The position numbers and the translations under genes were made by a program. A DNA stretch of 48,320 nt from a virus: positions 1 to 48,320 of IMG/VR virus record IMGVR_UViG_3300034407_003054; one strand, given 5' to 3'. The notes below the pieces were generated by a model, which saw only the letters and a program-made list of their open reading frames with translations, was not told the origin of the DNA and ran no database searches. This document shows positions 9,341-39,902 of this stretch, piece after piece (positions within the stretch are counted from its first letter, which is position 1; every line of letters starts with the position of its first letter).

Positions 9341-11363
9341 AATACTAACCGAATTATCCTATCGTGTTAAAGATGGGGTGCCTAATTTAAACAACGAACA
9401 ACACTTAATTAAATTGTTTGATGTGTTGAAAGAGTTTAACTGGCCGATAGAAGCACGCGTAGAACTTATACAGAATCTTACTGAATCCGAAGCAGGTGAC
9501 CAAGCAAAGAAACTTGGATTAACACACATGGGATTTGGTAATTATGGTAAAGATGATAAAGTAACTCACACTTCAAAAGATGGTGAATTAGTTCCTGTCG
9601 GTGGAAGTGGAGGCGATGATAGTGAAAAATCTGAAAAAGGTGAAAAAGAATTAAATCAAAAGATAGATTTTAACAATCCACCAGAATCAATTACAAAAGA
9701 TATTCAACCTGATGATGAAACTTTTGAAAACCAAGAAAATATTACACCACATGAATATGACCCACAAGAAATAGAAGTTGGTGGACAAAAAATTAAATTA
9801 CCAGTAAATGAGGAAACATTAAATAAAGTATTTAACCAACCACCACATAAATTTCCTAAAAAATATATTAAAACTTTAGAAAGAATTTTAAATACACAAA
9901 AGATAGATAAAGACAATCCACCAATAACTTCCTTTACAAACTCTTCCGAAGAAAGAGAACAAGTGGGTGCAGGTCAGATATCCGCACAAGCATCAGAATT
10001 ATTAATGATGATGAGTACTACTTTATCAGATGAGGAATCAGATAAATTATATGAGTTATTAGAAAAAACTTCAGATTCTACAAAAGGAAACCAAATACTT
10101 GATAAAAGTTGGATACAGGCCTCAAGGTCTATGAGAGAAGCAGCTATTAAAAATATTAAGGAACAATATGGGCCAGATGCAGTAGTTGAATTTGGTGGTT
10201 GGGATTCTACTGCTGATGTTGAGGATGGTATTGGAATATCATACGATAAAAAAGGATTCTCTACTGATACTTTCTTCAGAGTAAAAGTTGATGGTAAATC
10301 TAAAATACATGAAGTATCAAATAAAAAAAGTTTAGTGGTTCATTTGGCAAATCCAGGTTCAGGTGATATAGAGGATGGAATGGAAAAGGCGGGTGTTGAT
10401 ATAGGAGACCCAAATAGACATGCAGGTAAATATACAGAAAACGCAGCCAATCGTTCACGAAAACGATTAGAAGAAATTAATGATATAGAAGTATATGAAA
10501 AGTTAGATGATATGAATGATGATGAACTTCTTGAAACATTAAATAATCTACCATCTGAAATCAGGTCAAACTTTACAAGTGGTAGTGCACCTAAACTTGA
10601 ATTAAAAAAAGATGCGAGAAATTATTTAAAGATGATGAAGGCATTGAAGAATGTTCCAAAACCATGGGACACCACTAATAAAGAATTTTTAGATGCAGCG
10701 AAAGAAGCAGGAGTCAATCTTGGTTCAAGAGTTCCAGGTTCATCAAAGGCGATAAATAAAATGATGATATATTCTGCATATTTACAATACGCAGATGAAT
10801 TAAGTAATGGTGTAGAAGACGGACCAGGTATGAATTTTATTCAGAATCAAGTAGGTATAATTGGTAAAGAACCATATCCAGAGGGTTCTCAAAGAGATGT
10901 AGAAAATCAACACATTGTTAATTTAAATAAAAAAGAATCAAGACCTGTTTTGATGAAATTAATTAGAGAAAAATTTCCATTAAAATCACTAATGGAAGCA
11001 GAAGAGAGTATGGTACTTGGTGGTAATAGAATGAGTCCTGAGATTTGTGAAAAGATTTTTGGAACTACTGAATGGGATAAGGTTCAAGAAAATATTTCTA
11101 TTAAGAAAAATGATAAGGGTGAATATTATCTAACATATTCTGTAAAAGTTGATGGAAAAGAAAAAGAAATAAGGATTGCTCAAATAAAACCAAGAGGTAA
11201 GGGTAAAGGATATGCAAGTATAACAACCGAAATGTCATTGGCAGAAGAGTTTCAACATACCGTTCATTGTGCGAATAAAACTTCAGATAATCCACCAAAA
11301 AACCCAAGTGATGAAGAAATTAAACTCGCTAAGAAATTAGAAAGAAAGTATGGAGAATGTTAA
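9321..11363 (+). CDS. Unknown 680-residue phage protein
   Basis: The likely start is ATG 9321; the longer frame begins at TTG 9315 and adds two residues. Near residues 55-90 it has AKKLGLTHMGFGNYGKD followed by a K.THTS.DGELVPVG stretch, a linker-like motif that I associate with large proteins of marine T4-like phages. An acidic low-complexity region (about 90-115) follows. The middle contains FGGWDSTADVEDGIGISYDK and a Lys-rich region; the C-terminal 250 residues look globular and end with EEFQHTVHCANK. No catalytic motif or transmembrane segment is convincing. It may be a virion-associated or early host-takeover protein. It ends with a TAATG overlap with the next gene. Confidence 0.55.
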   Translation: MKNELNKILTELSYRVKDGVPNLNNEQHLIKLFDVLKEFNWPIEARVELIQNLTESEAGDQAKKLGLTHMGFGNYGKDDKVTHTSKDGELVPVGGSGGDDSEKSEKGEKELNQKIDFNNPPESITKDIQPDDETFENQENITPHEYDPQEIEVGGQKIKLPVNEETLNKVFNQPPHKFPKKYIKTLERILNTQKIDKDNPPITSFTNSSEEREQVGAGQISAQASELLMMMSTTLSDEESDKLYELLEKTSDSTKGNQILDKSWIQASRSMREAAIKNIKEQYGPDAVVEFGGWDSTADVEDGIGISYDKKGFSTDTFFRVKVDGKSKIHEVSNKKSLVVHLANPGSGDIEDGMEKAGVDIGDPNRHAGKYTENAANRSRKRLEEINDIEVYEKLDDMNDDELLETLNNLPSEIRSNFTSGSAPKLELKKDARNYLKMMKALKNVPKPWDTTNKEFLDAAKEAGVNLGSRVPGSSKAINKMMIYSAYLQYADELSNGVEDGPGMNFIQNQVGIIGKEPYPEGSQRDVENQHIVNLNKKESRPVLMKLIREKFPLKSLMEAEESMVLGGNRMSPEICEKIFGTTEWDKVQENISIKKNDKGEYYLTYSVKVDGKEKEIRIAQIKPRGKGKGYASITTEMSLAEEFQHTVHCANKTSDNPPKNPSDEEIKLAKKLERKYGEC

Positions 11364-11770
11364 TGAGAACTCAATTACTATGTACATTCACTAAACAAGA
11401 CAAACTAAATGAATCTATTGATATCATAGTTTCTTGTAATAAAATTTTATATGATAAGGTTTATGTCTTTACAGATGTAAATGACCCATCACAATTGTTA
11501 TGCACTTACAATGTGGAATTCAATGAAGACTTTCAAGAACCAACTATAGATACTATATCTCTTCATAGAAAGAAACAATCAAATACACTCTACACAATCA
11601 ATGCACTGAATGAAGTTATTCGTTCAAAGAATAATGGAATCTTAGATAAGAAGTTCATGGTTGATTGGGATGAGTTTCAGAACACACTATTATTAACAAA
11701 TGAAAATGGATTAACAAAGATTCCTACAAAGATTCATTCCATTATAGATGTTAATGAATGGTTAAAATAA
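11363..11770 (+). CDS. Conserved small protein of T4-like marine phages
   Basis: A 135-residue protein. The start at 11363 is set by GGAG 7 nt upstream and the TAATG overlap with the previous gene; an in-frame ATG at 11357 would sit only 1 nt after that site. It reads MRTQLLCTFT at the N-terminus and contains ISLHRKKQSNTLYTINALNE (about 72-91) and FMVDWDEFQNTLLLT. I recall similar proteins, including the LHRKKQxNTLYTINALN stretch, in cyanophages, where they are unannotated. It is the last gene before the long non-coding region and gp32. Function unknown; no domain recognised. Confidence 0.65.
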   Translation: MRTQLLCTFTKQDKLNESIDIIVSCNKILYDKVYVFTDVNDPSQLLCTYNVEFNEDFQEPTIDTISLHRKKQSNTLYTINALNEVIRSKNNGILDKKFMVDWDEFQNTLLLTNENGLTKIPTKIHSIIDVNEWLK

Positions 11771-11824
11771 AAAAAATAAAAAAAAAATAAAAAAAAATAC
11801 GGTTTGGGATTTTTCCAATATATA

Positions 11825-11832
11825 TATAAATA
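11825..11832 (+). promoter_or_regulatory. T4-type late promoter box TATAAATA
   Basis: An exact TATAAATA lies in a TA-rich stretch after an A-rich tract (11770-11801). T4 late promoters consist of this octamer at -10, read by the phage sigma gp55 without a -35 element. A transcript would begin near 11840-11845 and would run into the candidate structured RNA and stop at the terminator at 12282-12352. In such AT-rich DNA an octamer can occur by chance, so its position in front of the RNA is the main support. Confidence 0.45.
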
Positions 11833-11844
11833 TACTTAATAACT

Positions 11845-12352
11845 TAAGTATTAGTTTTTTGAAAATTTGAAATCAGAAAGTACAGAGAGTAATTGACTTT
11901 GTATGGGATTGACCGAATAATGGGTAGACTTTAGAAGCCCATAAGGTAATCACAGATGAGTTTGTGGTGAACCTACCGAGGTTAGAATAATTTTGGTAGT
12001 TGAGACATCAATCATTTAATGTACTTGAAGAAAAAACAATAGAAACGATTCTATTGACCTTGTTGTGGGTAAGGGTAAAACTGAAGTCCCACTTTATGAC
12101 TGAATCAATCTAATCTTGGAGAGATAAGGTAATGATACAGAGGTTGTACTCACTTCAATGAGATTAACCATCTTGAGAAGAATCATCGTAACTGATGGGT
12201 ATTAGGTACAAGGTAGAAAAAATCCAAGCTTCAAGTTGTAGGTAATCGTTAATCCTACATCCCCATAGATTTCATAAAATTAAAAAAATGGTCACACGAT
12301 TTTTAGTTTCCACCTTATATACAAACTTAAAAACAAGATGACCATTTTTTTT
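11845..12352 (+). ncRNA. Candidate structured non-coding RNA, about 500 nt
   Basis: No coding frame of any length covers this region, yet it is less AT-biased than the flanking spacers and rich in compact hairpins: 11920-11925/11937-11942; CACA 11951 with TGTG 11963; CTACC 11973 with GGTAG 11995; CAATAGAA 12037 with TTCTATTG 12049 (8 bp around an ACGA tetraloop); GTGGG 12065 with CCCAC 12088; TGTAGG 12237 with CCTACA 12254. The word AGGTAAT occurs three times (near 11944, 12127 and 12240), always beside a helix. A late-type promoter box lies upstream and a long hairpin terminator closes it. I could not fit tmRNA, RNase P or group I intron signatures. Ends are approximate. Confidence 0.6.
12282..12352 (+). 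terminator. Strong Rho-independent terminator
   Basis: Bases 12282-12294 (AAAAAAATGGTCA) pair perfectly with 12339-12351 (TGACCATTTTTTT), and inside the loop TTTTTAGTTT near 12300 pairs with AAACTTAAAAA near 12323 with one bulge, giving a long two-part hairpin. The 3' arm ends in eight T. Because the 5' arm starts with A7, it could also stop transcription from the other side. It separates the RNA region from the gp32 leader. Confidence 0.75.
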
Positions 12353-12406
12353 GCAAAAAAATAAAAATAAAACCGTTTTTTACAAATATATATGATATAT
12401 ATTATT

Positions 12407-12437
12407 GTATCAAGGTTATACTTGAATACCAATTAAC
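12407..12437 (+). promoter_or_regulatory. gp32 leader hairpin/pseudoknot-like element
   Basis: GTATCAAG (12407-12414) pairs with CTTG(A)ATAC (12421-12429) around the loop GTTATA; the loop bases GTTA (12415-12418) can pair with TAAC at 12434-12437, giving an H-type pseudoknot. It lies 31-61 nt before the gp32 start and is followed by an unstructured A/T-rich stretch and AGGAG. T4 gene 32 mRNA has a pseudoknot at about the same distance, which nucleates gp32 binding and autogenous repression. The second stem here is only 4 bp, so the pseudoknot is a proposal. Confidence 0.4.
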
Positions 12438-12467
12438 AATTAAACATAAAATAATAGGAGATAAATA

Positions 12468-13226
12468 ATGGACTTAAATGCTATTCGTAAGAGGTTATCA
12501 CAACTTCAAACAACAAACAACAGAACATCAAGTCTTTGGAAACCACAACCAGGTAAAACTCAAATCAGAATCGTACCTTACAACTTAAATAAGGACAATC
12601 CTTTCATTGAGTTATTTTTCCACTACAATCTCAACAATCGTTCATATCTTTCACCAATATCATTTGGTAGACCTGACCCGATTGAAGAGTTTGCACAGAA
12701 ACTTCGTGGAAGTGGCAACAAAGAAGATTATCAATTGGCTCGTAAATTAGAGGCAAAAATGAGAACTTTTGCACCAGTCGTAGTCAGAGGTGAAGAATCA
12801 CAAGGAGTAAAATTTTGGGGATTCGGTAAAACCGTATACCAAGAACTACTTTCTGTAATTGCAGACCCAGACTATGGTGATATTACAGACCCAGTTAATG
12901 GTCGTGATGTTGTTGTTGAGTTCATTTCAGCAGAGGAGACTGGAGCCAGTTATCCTACTACTAAGATTAGAGTGAAACCTAATCAAACACCAATTTCAGA
13001 TGAACCTGAAATCTTGGAAAAAGTAAAAGACCAACAAGACATTACTGAAATTTATCAAGAGTTATCTTATGATGACTTATCAGGAGTATTAAACGAATGG
13101 TTAAACCCATCCGATGACGATACTGATGGTGAGGAATCAACAACAGATACCGTAACAACTTCTGAATTGGAATCTTCCAAAGTGAAAGATACATCAGAAG
13201 CATTTGATGAATTATTTAATTCATAA
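12468..13226 (+). CDS. 32: Single-stranded DNA-binding protein gp32
   Basis: A 252-residue protein with the layout of T4-type gp32: a basic N-terminal segment for cooperative binding (MDLNAIRKRLSQLQ), an OB-fold core (WKPQPGKTQIRIVPY, then FWGFGKTVYQELLSVIADPD and DPVNGRDVVVEF) and a long acidic tail (about 210-252) ending DTSEAFDELFNS, which in T4 contacts the other replication proteins. It coats single-stranded DNA during replication and recombination. It contains no cysteine, so the structural zinc of T4 gp32 is absent. It has an ideal AGGAG site. A candidate leader pseudoknot upstream suggests autoregulation. UvsX, its recombination partner, follows after 97 nt. Confidence 0.92.
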   Translation: MDLNAIRKRLSQLQTTNNRTSSLWKPQPGKTQIRIVPYNLNKDNPFIELFFHYNLNNRSYLSPISFGRPDPIEEFAQKLRGSGNKEDYQLARKLEAKMRTFAPVVVRGEESQGVKFWGFGKTVYQELLSVIADPDYGDITDPVNGRDVVVEFISAEETGASYPTTKIRVKPNQTPISDEPEILEKVKDQQDITEIYQELSYDDLSGVLNEWLNPSDDDTDGEESTTDTVTTSELESSKVKDTSEAFDELFNS

Positions 13227-29097: not shown

Positions 29098-29324
29098 ATG
29101 ACGAAAGACAATATCAAGAACCATTAGATATTTCAAAGGCAGATACAATTCAATGTGAAGAGTGTGGAAACGCATCCTTTATACAATCGTTCTTTTTGAA
29201 AAGAGTATCAGCATTGATGAGTCCAAATGGTAAAGAAGCAATTATACCAATACAAGTATTCGCTTGTGGTAATTGTGGTTCAATACCAAAGAATATGATG
29301 AGTCAAATTCAACCGAGTGAGTAA
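29094..29324 (+). CDS. Zinc-ribbon protein
   Basis: A 76-residue protein with CEEC (about 21-24) and CGNC (about 56-59), a two-knuckle zinc ribbon with 31 residues between the knuckles. Such small ribbons follow clamp-loader genes in other T4-like marine phages as I remember them; in T4-type transcription, small zinc proteins can contact polymerase, but no function can be assigned here. It has TAGGAG before its start, overlaps gp44 by 4 nt, and its stop overlaps the next start. Confidence 0.65.
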   Translation: MNDERQYQEPLDISKADTIQCEECGNASFIQSFFLKRVSALMSPNGKEAIIPIQVFACGNCGSIPKNMMSQIQPSE

Positions 29325-30736
29325 TGTATACTAAAGTTGGAGATGGACTACAAGTAGTAAGTGGTGACATAGTTAAGAGTTTAGTTGGTTTAGAGAATCT
29401 AACATACAAGATGTCAGAAGAATTCAACTCTGAAAGACTATGGACACCATCTCATCTTTCCATGGACAATGCCTACAAGACAGGATACATGGAATCATTC
29501 TCACATCAAGTATCTATAATTAATTCATACCATGGTGAAGAAAAAGGAATGTGTTCACCTACAGGATGTTATCATTGTTATAGTTTCTTAAAAGATAAAA
29601 GTGTTACAGATAAATCTTATGTAATGACAAGTAAATGTACACGAATAGAAGAAGAGTGCAATGATTTAGAAAGAATGTTTAATTTCACTATATCAGAGAT
29701 AGTGTTTGTTGGTACTGAGAAATATTGTGAGGATAATTTAAATAAAGCAATGACTTTAACATCACAAATGTTAGACCAACTTGGTATCAAATATTTTTAT
29801 GAAGTTGCATCAGACCCATTCTTTGGTGATAAATCAGAGTTAAAAAGAAAAGTACAAATCAAAAGTGGTTCTAAAATTGAGATTAGAGCATGGATTCCTA
29901 ACGAGGATAGACATGTTGCAATAGGTTCATTTAATCTACATGGTAGGAAGTTTATTGATAAATTTAGTATACAAGATTCAGAGATGACTGCATGTTTTGG
30001 TTGGGGATTAGAAAGATTTGTAGATGTTGTAAGTAAGTATGACAAAACCATAGATGAAACTAAAATCAATTTCAACTTCAAAAATGATAACACTTTTATA
30101 CCTGAAATTAGAAAAAATATAATTGATGATTCTAATGGTTGGTTATGTGATAACCATCAGACATATTGGTTTGGTAGAAAACCTATACATGAATATGAAA
30201 TCCAAACACCAGATATTGGTGAGGTTGTCTATGAAGACATTGATACACTTGAACAACTTGATGGGTGGACATGGGAAATTCTACAAGGACTCAAAGAGTG
30301 GGACAGATTGAACATGAAGTGGATTAACGAAGAGACAAGAAAAACTTGGTTATGGGATTTAGAAACTGCAAAGAAAAGAATACAAGATGGACACAATTTA
30401 TGTGCAATGTTTTACGAGGGTAAACTGATACAATGGAATTGGTGGTTTATGGGTGAATTTACTTTTTATGACCATGAGTGGAATATTGATATGAACTTAC
30501 CTAAAGACCATTCTTATGGTGGATATTGGGCATGTTTACCTAAATACAGAACTTCAAGAAAACATGGTAAACTGATAGAACATTTCTACACTTATATTAC
30601 AAACTATCTTATTAGAAAGAATATAAAATATGACTTGGCATATGTTGATGGTTGGAATAATAAGGCAATCAGTATACACAAGAAAATGGGATATGTGGGT
30701 TACAATTGGATGAAAAATGAAAACTTTCTCAAATAA
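29324..30736 (+). CDS. Amino-acid:carrier-protein-ligase-like domain fused to GNAT acetyltransferase
   Basis: A 470-residue two-domain protein. Residues 1-240 match the class II synthetase-like amino acid:[carrier protein] ligases: GCYHCYS (81-87), KCTRIEE (104-110, motif 2), EVASDPFFGDK (160-170), a GSFNLHG segment (201-207) and MTACFGWGLERF (221-232, motif 3). In that family the order ACxPxYP, CFRHE, DVAxDPFFG, SFNYHQ, ACxGFGLER is the hallmark. The third zinc ligand (Cys before the SFN motif) is Ile here. Residues 355-465 form a GNAT domain, with KYRTSRKHGKLIEHF for CoA binding and NKAISIHKKMGYVGY at the end. I know of no described fusion of this kind. It probably activates an amino acid and acylates something. 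Confidence 0.72.
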   Translation: MYTKVGDGLQVVSGDIVKSLVGLENLTYKMSEEFNSERLWTPSHLSMDNAYKTGYMESFSHQVSIINSYHGEEKGMCSPTGCYHCYSFLKDKSVTDKSYVMTSKCTRIEEECNDLERMFNFTISEIVFVGTEKYCEDNLNKAMTLTSQMLDQLGIKYFYEVASDPFFGDKSELKRKVQIKSGSKIEIRAWIPNEDRHVAIGSFNLHGRKFIDKFSIQDSEMTACFGWGLERFVDVVSKYDKTIDETKINFNFKNDNTFIPEIRKNIIDDSNGWLCDNHQTYWFGRKPIHEYEIQTPDIGEVVYEDIDTLEQLDGWTWEILQGLKEWDRLNMKWINEETRKTWLWDLETAKKRIQDGHNLCAMFYEGKLIQWNWWFMGEFTFYDHEWNIDMNLPKDHSYGGYWACLPKYRTSRKHGKLIEHFYTYITNYLIRKNIKYDLAYVDGWNNKAISIHKKMGYVGYNWMKNENFLK

Positions 30737-34008: not shown

Positions 34009-34395
34009 ATGAAAGTTATCAAGGATACACCTAAGAGTAATACAAATAATGAATATGTGGATGTCATAGAGTATATGGAAACAAAATACCCACAGATGAC
34101 ATCAGAGTTTAGGAAAATCCAACAAGACCAATATGAGTTGTTCTTAAGAAAACAACACGATTACGGCCCACAAAACATTGCAGTTGGTACTGCACTAAAA
34201 AATGATGAGGACAAGAGATTATCATTGATGGGTATCTGGTTCAGGATTAATGATAAAGTAGAGAGAATCAAGACTCTTATTATGAGAGGTGATGATGGTT
34301 CTTTAGAGAATGAGGGTTTGGTAGATAGTTATTCAGATATCTCAAACTATGGAGTGATGGCACAAGTAGTCGCGAGAGGTAAGTGGGCTAAGTAA
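34009..34395 (+). CDS. Nucleotide modification associated domain 1 (DUF1599) protein
   Basis: A 128-residue protein. The start at ATG 34009 has TGGAG 6 nt upstream; the longer TTG 33997 reading would cover that site. Diagnostic strings are RKQHDYGPQNIAVG (about 48-61), LMGIWFRINDKVERIKTL (about 73-90) and SYSDISNYGVMA (about 108-119), which match Nmad1/DUF1599. Members were named for their association with phage nucleotide modification genes and are thought to act on nucleotides, as their all-helical fold resembles MazG-type enzymes. It directly precedes a sugar dehydrogenase gene (overlap by 1 nt). Confidence 0.72.
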   Translation: MKVIKDTPKSNTNNEYVDVIEYMETKYPQMTSEFRKIQQDQYELFLRKQHDYGPQNIAVGTALKNDEDKRLSLMGIWFRINDKVERIKTLIMRGDDGSLENEGLVDSYSDISNYGVMAQVVARGKWAK

Positions 34396-35234
34396 TGGAG
34401 ATTGGAATAGTTGGTCAAGGTTATGTTGGTACTGCAATCAAAGTAGGTTTTGAACCACATTATGATTACATACACACCTACGATAAATATGATTTGGCAA
34501 AATCAACTTTACCAAATATAAAAGATTTAGTTGATAAATGTGATGTGATTTTTGTATGTGTTCCTACACCAATGAGAAAAGATGGAACTTGTTATACAGG
34601 TATTGTAGAAGAGGTAATTAAAGAAATTGATTATAATGTAGATGTTAATAAGGATAAACCTATTGTGGTGATTAAGTCAACCATTCCACCAGGTACTACT
34701 GATAAGTTTAATAAAAGTTATTCAAATGTTATTGTAATATTTAATCCTGAGTTCTTAACAGAAGAAAACTTCCTTGAGGATTTCAAGAATCAAAAAAGAA
34801 TTATATTAGGTGGTCAAAGAAATGGGACTAATACACTCAGACAAATATATTCCAAAGTATTTCCACATGCAACTATAGTTAAGACTGGTAGTAAGACTGC
34901 AGAGATGGTAAAGTATTTTATTAACAACTTCTTGGCAACCAAAGTATCATTTGCAAATGAAATGTATAAGGTATGTGAACAAGTAGACATTGATTATGAT
35001 AAAGTTGTAGAGTATGCAACATATGATGAGAGGTTAGGTAAATCACATTGGGCAGTACCTGGTCCTGATGGTGACCTTGGTTTTGGTGGTCATTGTTTAC
35101 CAAAAGATTTAAGTGCGATTATTAATCAATTTGAAACCTATGGTTTATTAGAGGCCGTAGAGAATGTAAATGACCAAGTTCGTGATAATCGTGATTGGGA
35201 AGAAATGAAAGGGAGAGCAATAATAGATGAGTAG
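34395..35234 (+). CDS. Nucleotide-sugar dehydrogenase, short form
   Basis: UDP-glucose/GDP-mannose dehydrogenase family, oxidising an NDP-sugar to the uronic acid. An NAD-binding start IGIVGQGYVG (3-12) and the catalytic loop GFGGHCLPKD with Cys234 are intact, as is FNPEFLTEENF. At 279 residues it lacks the C-terminal UDP-binding domain of the usual 430-residue enzymes, as do some phage members, so substrate handling may differ. It overlaps the Cas4-like gene by 8 nt. It probably supplies the glycan cluster further downstream. Confidence 0.82.
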   Translation: MEIGIVGQGYVGTAIKVGFEPHYDYIHTYDKYDLAKSTLPNIKDLVDKCDVIFVCVPTPMRKDGTCYTGIVEEVIKEIDYNVDVNKDKPIVVIKSTIPPGTTDKFNKSYSNVIVIFNPEFLTEENFLEDFKNQKRIILGGQRNGTNTLRQIYSKVFPHATIVKTGSKTAEMVKYFINNFLATKVSFANEMYKVCEQVDIDYDKVVEYATYDERLGKSHWAVPGPDGDLGFGGHCLPKDLSAIINQFETYGLLEAVENVNDQVRDNRDWEEMKGRAIIDE

Positions 35235-36060
35235 AATTAGTTATAGTCAATTTAGTAAGTGGGACAAATGTCCTTACACTTGGAAATTAGATTACATAGA
35301 TAAGGTTAGTACATTCAAGGGAAACATATATACACTATTTGGTTCTGCAATCCATGAAACTATTCAGGCATACTTAGTTGCGTATTATAATAAAACTATC
35401 AAGTATGCAGATTCACTTCCACTACAAGATATTCTACAATACAGAATGGAAGAGAATTATAAGAAGTCTAAAGAACAACATGGTGATGATTTTGATGTAT
35501 CATTAGATGATATGAAAGAGTTTTTTCAAGATGGTATCAATATTATTGATGAGTTCTTAAAAAGAAAGTCAAGTTATTTTCCTAAGAAAAGTACTGAGTT
35601 AGTTGGTATTGAATTAGACTTGAATCAAGAGTTAGATAACAAACTAACTTTCATTGGATATATGGATGTGGTCATACATAACAAGAAAACAGGTCGTATT
35701 AAGATTATTGATATCAAAACTGCAACGATGGGTTGGAACAAATATATGAAAGCCGACAAGAACAAAACTAATCAGTTGTTGTTATATAAGAAGTTTTTTG
35801 CAGACCAAGCAGATATTCCAATAGATAAAATAGATGTTGAATATTTAATATTAAAGAGAAGATTATATGAGAATATAGCTTACCCACAAAAAAGAATACA
35901 ACAATTTTCACCCGCGAGTGGAAAACCAAGTATTAATAAGGTTATGACAAGATTAGACGAGTTTATGTCTGAATGTTATGATAAAGATGGTAACATTATT
36001 AACAATGATTATCAAAAGTGTGAAAAACACAAAAAATGTAGATTATGTAAGGATTTATAA
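35227..36060 (+). CDS. Cas4/RecB-like PD-(D/E)XK nuclease with Fe-S cysteines
   Basis: A 277-residue nuclease. His43 (IHETIQ), Asp147 (FIGYMDVVI) and IDIKTA with Asp162 and Lys164 make the catalytic core. Cys15, Cys265, Cys271 and Cys274 (CEKHKKCRLC) form the split four-cysteine iron-sulfur pattern of Cas4 and AddB-type nucleases. Such enzymes trim single-stranded or broken DNA ends; in phages they act in recombination. No CRISPR array is near, so a link to adaptation is not supported. It is coupled to both neighbours (overlap upstream; TAATG downstream). Confidence 0.85.
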   Translation: MSRISYSQFSKWDKCPYTWKLDYIDKVSTFKGNIYTLFGSAIHETIQAYLVAYYNKTIKYADSLPLQDILQYRMEENYKKSKEQHGDDFDVSLDDMKEFFQDGINIIDEFLKRKSSYFPKKSTELVGIELDLNQELDNKLTFIGYMDVVIHNKKTGRIKIIDIKTATMGWNKYMKADKNKTNQLLLYKKFFADQADIPIDKIDVEYLILKRRLYENIAYPQKRIQQFSPASGKPSINKVMTRLDEFMSECYDKDGNIINNDYQKCEKHKKCRLCKDL

Positions 36061-36524
36061 TGATTACACCAACACTAAGGTTAAAGTTATCAGATTTTAT
36101 TGATAAACCATGGGAACAAGATGTATTAGGTGAATTATCTAATGTAGGAAATGAAGTATTTCAAAACCAATTCACGATTTATTTTTGGTATGATAGAAAT
36201 ACAGAATCAATAGATTTAAGTAGGTTAAGTCAGTTCTTAAAACAAAGAGAATCTGAAACTAACAAACCACAAAAAACTATTATCAGACCAGAGTTTTTTG
36301 ATAAACAAGTATTTTTTATTTGGTACGATGTAATACCAAGAAGTATATACGAAAACAACCACATTCAATATTCAAGATTTAGTTGGTTATATAGTGACCC
36401 AAGTACAGGTATAGTTGAAGGTATTAAAAACTTTAAAGATACTTGGGAATTCGTATCAAGAGACCCAGAAAGAAAACCAAGGAAACAAAAAAGAAATGAC
36501 TATGAAGATAGCAATCATAGGTAG
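36060..36524 (+). CDS. Unknown 154-residue protein
   Basis: A Trp/Tyr/Phe-rich soluble protein (IYFWYDRNTESI, QVFFIWYDVIPRSIY, FSWLYSDPSTG) ending in a very basic tail (ERKPRKQKRNDYEDSNHR). The start is in a TAATG overlap with the nuclease gene, which argues that it is real. No domain recognised. The last 29 nt overlap the start of the SLOG gene in another frame, so these two are coupled. Confidence 0.6.
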   Translation: MITPTLRLKLSDFIDKPWEQDVLGELSNVGNEVFQNQFTIYFWYDRNTESIDLSRLSQFLKQRESETNKPQKTIIRPEFFDKQVFFIWYDVIPRSIYENNHIQYSRFSWLYSDPSTGIVEGIKNFKDTWEFVSRDPERKPRKQKRNDYEDSNHR

Positions 36525-36903
36525 TAGAAGTTATACTAACAAAAGAAAGATAAAAGATTTCGTCTTCAAGTTAAAAGAAAAAGTTGGAGATGAGTTAGTA
36601 ATAGTAAGTGGTGGAGCAAAACAAGGTTCTGATAAATATGCAAAACAATATGCACTTGAGTTTGATATAAATTATTCAGAGTTCCCACCATACCACGAAT
36701 CACATAATCAACATTGTGTACATGGTGCATTTAGATATAATAAACAATATAGTGTTGGTAATTACCATAAAAGAAATAAAGATTTAGTAGATTATAGTGA
36801 CAATGTGGTCGCATTTGTTACAGATGGTAAGGTAACAGATGGTACAGGTTCTGCATTAAAGTATTCAAAAAAAATAAATAAAAAAGTGATTATTTTTGAT
36901 TAA
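36496..36903 (+). CDS. SLOG-family (DUF2493/YspA-like) nucleotide-binding protein
   Basis: A 135-residue Rossmann-like protein starting at ATG 36496 (AAGGA 12 nt before; ATG 36502 is also possible). KIAIIGSRSYTN (3-14), a GDELVIVSGGAKQGSDKYAK block (about 32-51) with the GGAxGxD signature, and VVAFVTDGKVTDGTG match the SLOG/DUF2493 group, which binds nucleotides or nucleotide-derived ligands and often accompanies phage nucleotide metabolism and defence systems. The longer reading from TTG 36415 adds a low-complexity N-terminus and lacks a ribosome site. Confidence 0.72.
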   Translation: MTMKIAIIGSRSYTNKRKIKDFVFKLKEKVGDELVIVSGGAKQGSDKYAKQYALEFDINYSEFPPYHESHNQHCVHGAFRYNKQYSVGNYHKRNKDLVDYSDNVVAFVTDGKVTDGTGSALKYSKKINKKVIIFD

Positions 36904-36931
36904 CAATCTATTTATATATATGTATATATAG
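36900..36931 (+). promoter_or_regulatory. Promoter-like sequence before the RHH-like gene
   Basis: TTAACA (36900-36905) and TATATA (36923-36928) are 17 nt apart within a TATATATATGTATATATAG block that is nearly identical to the one before gp45, and the ACTAACAA-like leader is also shared. Confidence 0.4.
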
Positions 36932-36953
36932 ATAACTAACAAAAGAGATTATT

Positions 36954-37148
36954 ATGAGTGAAGACAAATTAACATCAGTAAAAGTTATTGATGAGTTATA
37001 TCGTAAGTTCAAAGAGAAATCCATCTCTGAGGACTTTTCATTACAGAAATTAGTAAATCGTAGTTTACATTTATTTGTGTATGATGAAGATTTTAAGGAT
37101 AAAGTATTAAAAAATAGTGACTTGGAAACAAGTGGTTCAAAATATTAA
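36954..37148 (+). CDS. Small ribbon-helix-helix-like protein
   Basis: A 64-residue protein. TSVKVIDELYRKFKEKSISE followed by DFSLQKLVNRSLHLFVYD has the beta-helix-helix pattern of RHH (CopG/Arc-type) DNA-binding proteins, with a helix break between about residues 26 and 29. It has an AAGAG site, a leader shared with gp45 and is first in the glycan unit, so it may be a regulator of that unit. The match is by pattern, not by a diagnostic motif. Confidence 0.5.
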   Translation: MSEDKLTSVKVIDELYRKFKEKSISEDFSLQKLVNRSLHLFVYDEDFKDKVLKNSDLETSGSKY

Positions 37149-37158
37149 GAGGTTATAG

Positions 37159-38583
37159 ATGCAATTACCAAAACTACAAAAGGTATCTTCAAAACCAAAA
37201 AAGAAGAAAATCTTATTGTTGTCAGACGATTTAAGAATGCATAGTGGTGTCGGAACTATGTCAAGAGAAATAGTATTTGGAACTATTGATAAGTATGATT
37301 GGGTTCAAGTCGGTGGTGCTATCAAACATCCTGATAATGGTAAGATAGTTGATATGAATCAGGCAGTTAGGGAAGAGACTGGTGTTGAAGATGCATCATT
37401 AAAGATATATCCTATTGATGGTTATGGAAGTCAAGAAATAGTTAGACAATTATTAGTAGAAGAAAAACCAGATGCCATCCTACACTACACCGACCCAAGA
37501 TTTTGGATTTGGTTATATCAAATGGAACATGAGATAAGACAAAGTATTCCAATATTTTATTACAATATATGGGACAACTTACCTTATCCAACATGGAACG
37601 AACCATTTTATGAAAGTTGTGATTTGATTATGAATATATCTAAACAAACACACAACATAGTTCAAAATGTATGTCAGAATAAACCAAGAACAGATTGGGA
37701 TTCAACTTATATACCACATGGTATCAATGAAAAACATTTTTATCCAATCGTTGATGAAGACGAAATATTCAAAGTAAATAAAATAAGGAATGAGTTGTTC
37801 CAAGGTACAGAAGTAGACTTTTGTATACTATTCATCAATAGAAATATCAGAAGAAAGATGACTTCAGATTTAATCATGGCATTCAAAACATTTGCAGATG
37901 GATTAACAGAAGAACAAAGAAAGAAAATTGGATTTGTTTTACATACTGAACCAGTGGATAACAATGGAACAGATTTACCCGCAGTTATTGAAGAGTTATG
38001 TCCTGATTTGAATGTTGTGTTCTCAAGAGATAAACTTAATAATGAAGGAATGAATCAACTCTATAATGCAGTTGACCTTACCGTAAATATTGCATCCAAT
38101 GAAGGATTCGGATTAGGAACTTGTGAATCATTGATGAGTGGAACACCAATAATTGTAAATGTTACTGGTGGATTACAAGACCAATGTGGATTTAAATTAA
38201 AGGGTGAACACATTACTTATCAAGATTACAAAGATATTGAATCACTACACGATTGGAGAAAGTGGGAACACAATGAAGATTTAACTCATGGTGAATGGGT
38301 AAAACCAGTATGGCCGAGAACTCGTTCAGTTCAAGGTTCAGTTCCAACACCATTCATTATGGATGACAGAGTTGATTGGGTTGATGTTGCAGACGCATTA
38401 AGATATTGGTATGATAAATCACCAGAAGAGAGAAGAGAGGCAGGATTACTTGGACATGAATTTGTAACAGGTGATGATGGTATGATGAGTGCAAGACACA
38501 TGAGTGAGTTATTCATAGACCACATGGAAACTGCGTTTGAAAAGTGGACACCAAGAAAAAGTTATGAGGTACATGAAGTATGA
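37159..38583 (+). CDS. GT4-type glycosyltransferase
   Basis: A 474-residue GT-B glycosyltransferase. KKKILLLSDDLRMHSGVGTM near residue 15 is the acceptor-domain start with its Gly-rich loop, YIPHGINEKHF marks the interdomain region, and IASNEGFGLGTCESLMSGTPIIV (about 310-332) is the E-x7-E donor-sugar motif of family 4. It transfers a sugar from a nucleotide donor to an unknown acceptor. It overlaps the second GT4 gene by 4 nt. The pair probably builds consecutive linkages. Confidence 0.85.
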   Translation: MQLPKLQKVSSKPKKKKILLLSDDLRMHSGVGTMSREIVFGTIDKYDWVQVGGAIKHPDNGKIVDMNQAVREETGVEDASLKIYPIDGYGSQEIVRQLLVEEKPDAILHYTDPRFWIWLYQMEHEIRQSIPIFYYNIWDNLPYPTWNEPFYESCDLIMNISKQTHNIVQNVCQNKPRTDWDSTYIPHGINEKHFYPIVDEDEIFKVNKIRNELFQGTEVDFCILFINRNIRRKMTSDLIMAFKTFADGLTEEQRKKIGFVLHTEPVDNNGTDLPAVIEELCPDLNVVFSRDKLNNEGMNQLYNAVDLTVNIASNEGFGLGTCESLMSGTPIIVNVTGGLQDQCGFKLKGEHITYQDYKDIESLHDWRKWEHNEDLTHGEWVKPVWPRTRSVQGSVPTPFIMDDRVDWVDVADALRYWYDKSPEERREAGLLGHEFVTGDDGMMSARHMSELFIDHMETAFEKWTPRKSYEVHEV

Positions 38584-39902
38584 GTAAACCATTAATATTA
38601 GTTACAGGACCAGTTGCCACAAGAAGTGGATATGGTAACCACACAAGAGATATTTGTAGAGCATTGATTGAAAGTGATAAGTATGATATCAGAATCCAAT
38701 CTATGAGGTGGGGAAGTACACCATTAAATGCATTGGAAGAACATAATCCACACCACAGAGAGATTCATAAAAGAATTTTAAAACAACCAAATCTTGAAAG
38801 ACAACCAGATGTACATTTACATATAAGTGTACCAAATGAATTTCAACCATTGGCAAAAAAGAATATTGGAATTACTGCAGGTATAGAACATACAATCCCA
38901 CCTGGTACTTGGGTAGAGGGAATGAATCGTATGGATGTAAATATTATTACATCTGAATGGAGTGCAGTTAATTTTAAGAATGTATCATATGATAAAAAAG
39001 ATAATCAAGGTCAGTTAATAGGACAACTAAAAGTTAATAGTCCGATGACTACATTATTTGAAGGTGCAGACCCTGACATATTCAAAGAAACAAATGAGTT
39101 TTCAAAACAACTTGTTAGTGAGTTTGAGAAAATATCTACTGATTGGAATTTCTTATATACAGGTCATTGGTTACAAGGTGGTTTAGGTGAAGACAGAAAA
39201 GATGTTGGTATGATGATTAAAGTATTTTTAGAAGTATTTAAGAATCATAAGAATCCACCAGGACTTATACTAAAATCAAGTAGTGCAGGATTCTCAGTAG
39301 TTGATAGAGAAGATATCAAAAAGAAGATTGATTATATCAAGAGAGAGATAAAGGCAAAAACACTTCCTAAAATTTGGTTACTACATGGTGACTTAACAGA
39401 TGAAGAGATGAATCAATTGTATAATCATCCAAAAGTAAAGGCACACTTATCATTCACTCATGGTGAAGGATTTGGAAGACCATTATTGGAGGCATCATTT
39501 AGTGGTAAACCTATTATTGCACCATGTGAAACTGGTCAAAAAGATTTCCTTGATGAAAACAATACCGTAAAACTACCTGGTCAATATGTAAAGGTTCCAA
39601 ATAGGTCTTTTCCTAAAGAATTTTATGTTGATACTTGTGAGTGGTTTGGTGTAAATTATGGACTTGCATCTCAAATAATTAGAGATGTACATAAAAACTA
39701 TACAAAGTATGCCGTCAAGGGTAAGAAACTGATGTTACTTAATAGAAGAATGTTCACTCATGATAAAATGAGAGAGAAGTTAGAACAGATAGTTGACCAA
39801 CAATTATCATCACTTCCAAAACAAGTTGACATAAAGTTACCTAACATGAAAAAGGAAAACAAAAAAGAAGAAAAAAGTTTACCTAAATTGAGGAAAATAT
39901 AA
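38580..39902 (+). CDS. Second GT4-type glycosyltransferase
   Basis: A 440-residue GT-B enzyme. PLILVTGPVATRSGYGNHTR (3-22) is the N-terminal loop, and LSFTHGEGFGRPLLEASFSGKPIIA (about 294-318) contains the family 4 E-x7-E motif. It shares the start pattern with the previous gene, but the middle parts differ, so it is a paralog with its own specificity. The C-terminal 40 residues are Lys-rich (KKENKKEEKSLPKLRKI), which may target it to membrane or nucleic acid. TAATG overlap with the next gene. Confidence 0.84.
   Translation: MSKPLILVTGPVATRSGYGNHTRDICRALIESDKYDIRIQSMRWGSTPLNALEEHNPHHREIHKRILKQPNLERQPDVHLHISVPNEFQPLAKKNIGITAGIEHTIPPGTWVEGMNRMDVNIITSEWSAVNFKNVSYDKKDNQGQLIGQLKVNSPMTTLFEGADPDIFKETNEFSKQLVSEFEKISTDWNFLYTGHWLQGGLGEDRKDVGMMIKVFLEVFKNHKNPPGLILKSSSAGFSVVDREDIKKKIDYIKREIKAKTLPKIWLLHGDLTDEEMNQLYNHPKVKAHLSFTHGEGFGRPLLEASFSGKPIIAPCETGQKDFLDENNTVKLPGQYVKVPNRSFPKEFYVDTCEWFGVNYGLASQIIRDVHKNYTKYAVKGKKLMLLNRRMFTHDKMREKLEQIVDQQLSSLPKQVDIKLPNMKKENKKEEKSLPKLRKI

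Follow-up and report, generated by a model that had tools for sequence, protein, structure and literature searches.

Since 2010, manA RNAs (Rfam RF01745; Weinberg et al. 2010, PMC2864571) have remained orphan riboswitch candidates. The main texts of that paper and of PMC7657543, PMC7779021, and PMC9964418 describe manA as a single cis-regulatory candidate, and in these main texts no double form is found. The RNA described here, which we refer to as double manA, shares with RF01745 the core UGAYYGAAU...UAAGGURAU, P2, the GUGGUG multiloop hairpin, P7, a P8 with GGUA, the closing pseudoknot, and a kissing loop between the P7 hairpin and P8; both RNAs occur in marine phages and often adjoin gp32. 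It differs from RF01745 in having two modules with exchanged P7 strands, one pseudoknot stem for both, and a predicted terminator of its own. Tandem riboswitches, for example the tandem glnA RNAs (PMC2864571), also place two related RNA domains in series; in double manA, unlike these, strands are shared and neither half alone has a complete set of helices. Circularly permuted natural RNAs include hammerhead, twister, 5S rRNA, and group II introns (PMC10085705), and the inner module of double manA is likewise permuted but, unlike in those cases, sits within another copy of the same module. Finally, GOLLD, ROOL, and OLE (PMC12286853) are, like double manA, large structured RNAs of bacteria or phages that use kissing loops and a multi-copy architecture, whereas double manA has no Rfam match to them, carries its two copies in one chain, and is ≈400 nt long.

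The gap upstream of gp32 and its manA matches

The window, that is, the whole stretch of 48,320 nt that we analyzed, comes from an uncultivated marine virus of bacteria and carries a T4-like replication module of gp32, UvsX, an exonuclease, a DnaB-like helicase, ribonucleotide reductase, and a family B DNA polymerase. The nearest cultured relative by gp32 (46%) and DNA polymerase (45%) is Microcystis phage Mel-JY01, and no manA is found around gp32 of this phage or of a Flavobacterium phage. Elsewhere in this phage replication-type genome, the ORF at 29324–30736 encodes a class II aminoacyl-tRNA synthetase core domain (PF00587, 31.6 bits), which is unusual in a phage, and positions 34395–39902 hold a UDP-glucose dehydrogenase-like protein and two glycosyltransferase-like proteins.

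Between the ORF at 11357–11770 and that at 12468–13226 (+), which encodes a gp32-like single-strand DNA-binding protein (Pfam PF08804, 50.9 bits; PHROG 1192), lies a gap of 697 nt (11771–12467). An earlier interpretation made from the letters alone, hereafter the sequence-only reading, had singled out this gap of ≈700 nt as the site of a phage RNA of ≈500 nt with its own late promoter and terminator, with GOLLD as the nearest analogue and no family recognized. A protein-coding gap is ruled out, as no ORF of ≥50 aa is present on either strand. The features that had been pointed out are all present: an exact TATAAATA box at 11825–11832, a word of ordinary frequency in the window (12 occurrences versus 9.8 expected); an 8-bp stem with a 4-nt loop, CAATAGAA-ACGA-TTCTATTG, at 12037–12056; AGGTAAT at 11944, 12127, and 12240, words that form parts of two manA cores and of the P8 stem; and a long terminator hairpin at 12282–12352. 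The 517-nt strand folds better than 100 of 100 dinucleotide shuffles (z −2.6), and the observation of a strongly structured RNA in the gap is confirmed.

The covariance-model search that the sequence-only reading had proposed as a check identifies the family that this reading had missed. The 3′ half of the RNA matches manA RF01745 at 12082–12263 (+) with a cmscan score of 67.9 bits (E 2.9e-15) against a gathering score of 55.2, and the whole is a double form of manA. Within the window, only manA attains the gathering score of any Rfam family, and no GOLLD, ROOL, or other large RNA family appears among the sub-threshold Rfam matches in the gap; a GOLLD-like or other known large RNA is thus rejected, and the relative is manA. 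The 5′ half falls below the RF01745 cut-off (11881–12065, 17.5 bits, E 0.042 in a permissive scan of the window), and in five relatives the same model matches this half, over the module termed D1 below, with 25 to 39.9 bits (E 2.8e-6 to 1.2e-10). Since RF01745 matches both halves, the 5′ half mainly in relatives, both are manA-like, and the 5′ half is manA-related though it scores under the curated cut-off. A sequence-only HMM built on single manA detects the 3′ halves and misses the 5′ halves.

Fold of the double manA RNA

Relatives were fetched from viral contigs by the neighboring gp32 protein, with RNA information unused, and both gap and structure recur in dozens of them. We aligned 75 dereplicated full copies with MAFFT, 40 of which make up alignment A1. 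The pattern used to fetch copies, which spans the junction between the halves, fixes some of the P8-like hairpin and of the second core; it does not reach the closing stem, the kissing loop, the P2-loop pseudoknot, or either of the exchanged P7 helices. The final model contains 109 pairs, including two pseudoknots, and describes an ≈400-nt folded RNA in which two manA modules contribute strands to one another's helices. On A1, 94.5% of cells pair, compared with 78.0% in shuffled data, and 77 of the 109 pairs show double changes (shuffled mean 55.0; none of 500 shuffles as high), whereas sliding the partners by 1 to 3 columns lowers pairing to 36 to 43% (maximum 42.9%). The alignment of relatives for compensating changes, also suggested by the sequence-only reading, bears out a structured RNA: the helices covary far above chance. 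The inter-module helices are recovered unprompted by RNAalifold and by an unbiased APC covariation scan, and the fold is, judging from these comparisons, very likely real and important.

All elements lie on the plus strand. A P1 hairpin (11880–11904; 93% of cells paired, four pairs double-changed) precedes the 5′ strand of the closing stem, GGGAU (11905–11909), which is the equivalent of the 5′ strand of the manA pseudoknot and pairs with AUCCC (12259–12263) in 75 of 75 copies. This stem encloses both modules and covaries, pair 11907–12261 being GC in 65 copies and AU in 10, and it is kept with another sequence in a divergent subfamily described below. A possible outermost stem, P0, between 11868–11874 and 12268–12274 is suggestive only (mean pairing score 17.2 versus 16.2 in 200 partner shuffles; sd 0.31, maximum 17.0). 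The first, outer module D1 (11910–12017), supported by covarying helices and the sub-threshold RF01745 match, comprises the core UGACCGAAUAA...UAAGGUAAU, P2, and a four-way multiloop with the GUGGUG hairpin. It is followed by the 5′ strand of the outer P7 (12023–12030), whose partner is 12229–12236 of the other module (97.5% paired), and by the P7a hairpin (12037–12056), whose ACGA loop (12045–12048) kisses 12246–12249 in the P8 loop (99.4% paired); in relatives, this contact appears as GCGA/UCGC, ACGA/UCGU, AUGA/UCAU, GAGA/UCUC, and UUGA/UCAA. The inner P7 strand (12058–12063), which corresponds by homology to the 3′ strand of a P7, has 12208–12213 as its partner (97.1% paired, five of six pairs double-changed). 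The P8-like hairpin of D1, GUGGGUAAGGG...UCCCAC (12065–12092; 100% paired, partly within the fetch pattern), runs straight into the second, inner core and multiloop, D2 (12098–12204), whose P2 loop (12115–12120) pairs with 12223–12228. This pseudoknot is 100% paired and takes the forms CUCAGA/UCUGAG, CUUGGA/UCCAAG, CUCUGA/UCAGAG, and GUUAGA/UCUAAC. Covariation, RNAalifold, and pairing counts define an exchange strand (12208–12236) in which ACAAGG pairs with D1 12058–12063, UCCAAG with the D2 P2 loop, and CUUCAAGU with D1 12023–12030. Finally, the P8 hairpin with its kissing loop (12238–12258; 100% paired, three pairs double-changed) leads into the 3′ strand of the closing stem.

The topology shown by comparison of the copies is that of two manA modules fused into one fold. 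In manA, the P7 hairpin and the closing pseudoknot GGGAG/CUCCC each form inside one domain; here, the P7 strands are exchanged between modules, and GGGAU/AUCCC joins both halves. The covariation scan and RNAalifold favor the 8-bp exchanged stem over a 2-bp within-module P7. Ordinary tandem riboswitch domains fold side by side, and such an arrangement is ruled out for these modules by the best within-module P7 alternatives, which pair to 57% (outer) and 62% (inner) versus 97% for the exchanged helices. By the same comparison, P1 comes from the 5′ module, and the closing pseudoknot takes one strand from each module; because the P7 helices are inter-module, module 2 sits inside P7 of module 1, led by its own P8-like hairpin, and the kissing loop and the second pseudoknot lock the fold. 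Running in the order P7 3′ strand, P8-like hairpin, core, and P7 5′ strand, the inner module is a circularly permuted manA. In three dimensions, the RNA would resemble a strand-exchanged dimer within one chain, and it may have evolved by a tandem duplication after which P1 and one pseudoknot strand were lost. Double manA is a rare natural case of domain exchange inside one RNA chain.

A pattern scan uncovered a divergent subfamily that was not used to derive the fold model and that Rfam misses in the four loci tested. All 10 sequences retain the closing stem as GGGGU/ACCCC, all eight pairs of the outer P7, the six pairs of the P2-loop pseudoknot, and the three pairs of the kissing loop, with an A-U/G-C exchange at one of these; gp32 is the next gene in nine loci. 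The double manA contacts are replicated with other sequences. Automatic annotation detects half of double manA in one subfamily and misses the other subfamily entirely. The P2-loop pseudoknot and the P7–P8 kissing loop, which are (nearly) invariant in single manA, covary strongly in double manA, and this covariation yields a sharper manA structure and a clear target for probing and cryo-EM.

Single manA and the distribution of the double form

In 82 dereplicated copies of single manA, P7 covaries within the domain, and the kissing loop between the P7 hairpin and P8 alternates between CUGU/ACAG and AUGU/ACAU. Single manA lies directly behind a sigma-70-like promoter in 78 of 88 loci and leads into cyanophage gp32 in 23 of 88; other copies precede transaldolase-, thymidylate synthase-, and mannose-6-phosphate isomerase-like genes (names read from the N-termini by eye rather than by family search). 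It is usually a 5′ leader and is present in cultured cyanophages, whereas two double manA queries found no convincing match in 50,697 phage records.

The gp32-protein search returned many loci with a gap of ≈700 nt containing double manA, and more distant gp32 loci with gaps near 100 nt and no double manA. A pattern spanning the half-to-half junction matched at least 120 viral stretches and had no match in 84,980 bacterial and archaeal genomes. Each of the 18 larger contigs carries one double manA copy. In a gp32 tree, double manA occurs in several separate gp32 clades, with some "absent" labels in error (for example, at locus L018); we do not use this tree as evidence because the strict pattern missed variants such as L018.

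Free-standing RNA or gp32 leader

Comparison upholds the structure, the promoter-like box, and the terminator that the sequence-only reading had ascribed to this RNA, and it does not support a T4-type late promoter. The promoter-like region (11800–11834, +), predicted from conservation, consists of a CGGTTTGG element and a TATATATATAAATATA box; TATATAT is found upstream of the RNA in 64 of 71 relatives (8% in shuffles), preceded by a TTTTG-type element in 59, and the exact TATAAATA box occurs in only 20 of the 71. This box is not conserved, a T4 late promoter is therefore not supported, and both the "late" and the "transcribed" status of the RNA are putative. A 5′ terminal hairpin, ATACTTAA-TAAC-TTAAGTAT (11832–11851, +), has a counterpart at the same place in 52 of 71 relatives, with 22 different stems. 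At the other end, the terminator hairpin and U-run (12282–12352, +) combine a variable stem with an inner loop AUUUUUAGUUUCCAC...CUUAAAAA. A hairpin with U-run lies 3′ of the RNA in 65 of 76 loci (≈15% lack a terminator by a simple test), and the stems take at least 15 different sequences among relatives with pairing kept.

While the outer terminator stem varies, the inner loop is near-invariant. The same element is seen behind other genes (for example, an Hsp20-like gene in L343 and L355) and, with nothing else beside it, ahead of gp32 in L323, L326, and L338; this phage group may thus have in common either a type of terminator or an element that binds protein.

The terminator and a second promoter-like region (12370–12429, +; box at 12394–12407, 5′ hairpin at 12407–12429) separate double manA from gp32, and the layout of this second region is kept in gp32 relatives with and without double manA. 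In locus L032, ≈230 nt upstream of gp32 (start 4001), the promoter-like box and terminator are kept and the double manA body is absent, which would represent either a natural deletion or a pre-insertion state. In the gp32 leader itself (12407–12467), a short hairpin gives way to an A/U-rich, unstructured stretch ahead of the ribosome site, an arrangement that recalls the T4 gp32 autoregulatory operator.

We put the probability that this locus specifies a free-standing, structured phage RNA at roughly 60%. Double manA is most likely such an RNA, rather than the 5′ UTR riboswitch that the manA label implies, because it has its own promoter-like box, 5′ hairpin, and terminator, because gp32 has a similar box of its own, also in relatives without double manA, because no antiterminator complementarity is found, and because the RNA also occurs at other sites, namely before an Hsp20-like gene (L216) and downstream of an SbcC-like gene (L248 and L311; names from sequence inspection). 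The RNA would be transcribed from its AT-rich promoter, protected at its 5′ end by the hairpin, and ended by the terminator at ≈510 to 520 nt, after which gp32 would start from its own promoter. Its most likely role, which is speculative, would be to act in trans as a compact RNA ligand or scaffold with two copies of the site used in cis by single manA leaders; it might, for instance, compete for or concentrate the same factor, of host or phage origin, while the phage replicates. A fuller version, in which a fused, strand-exchanged pseudo-dimer with a permuted copy in the helix of another is released to act in trans and the single form remains a 5′ leader, seems to us evenly balanced.

The main rival, which we consider unlikely, is that double manA serves gp32 as a 5′ leader, either a double riboswitch or a leader that responds to protein, with an attenuator that sets the amount of gp32. 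Its position speaks for this possibility and against a free-standing RNA, given that in 66 of 74 loci gp32 comes directly after the RNA, where a cis role is possible, as does the usual leader role of single manA, including before cyanophage gp32. The classification of manA as cis-regulatory in Rfam also favors a leader, and a terminator between RNA and gene would suit an attenuator; the ≈15% of loci lacking a simple-test terminator count against a free-standing RNA. However, the terminator stems vary freely, their complementarity to the RNA body does not exceed that of partner shuffles, so that an attenuator with an antiterminator finds no signal, and the gp32 promoter-like region persists where double manA is absent. 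Moreover, the RNA is found with its terminator away from gp32, and the same terminator type stands behind other genes. It is quite improbable that the fold is transient and acts mainly as a 5′ stabilizer or RNase-resistant element of a longer gp32 transcript; a compact knotted fold at a transcript 5′ end and the promoter-proximal position of single manA fit this idea, but a strong terminator parts the RNA from gp32, which has its own 5′ hairpin. That a single manA merely adjoins an unrelated structured 5′ neighbor, as the one above-threshold Rfam match in the window might suggest, is barely credible, as the 5′ half has a covarying manA core, P2, GUGGUG hairpin, and P8-like element, is matched by RF01745 in relatives (E down to 1.2e-10), and pairs with the 3′ half in a manner that already contradicts this reading by covariation.

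On the preferred reading of a free-standing double manA, at least some of the manA family seems to be mislabeled as cis-regulatory. Free-standing manA may extend beyond the double form. A hairpin with U-run lies closely 3′ of single manA in L093, L112, L137, L152, L156, L173, L180, L185, and L201. Furthermore, L098 (9267–9311, −) holds a manA-like core with a different P2 and a longer 3′ region, outside the single manA set and possibly another variant.
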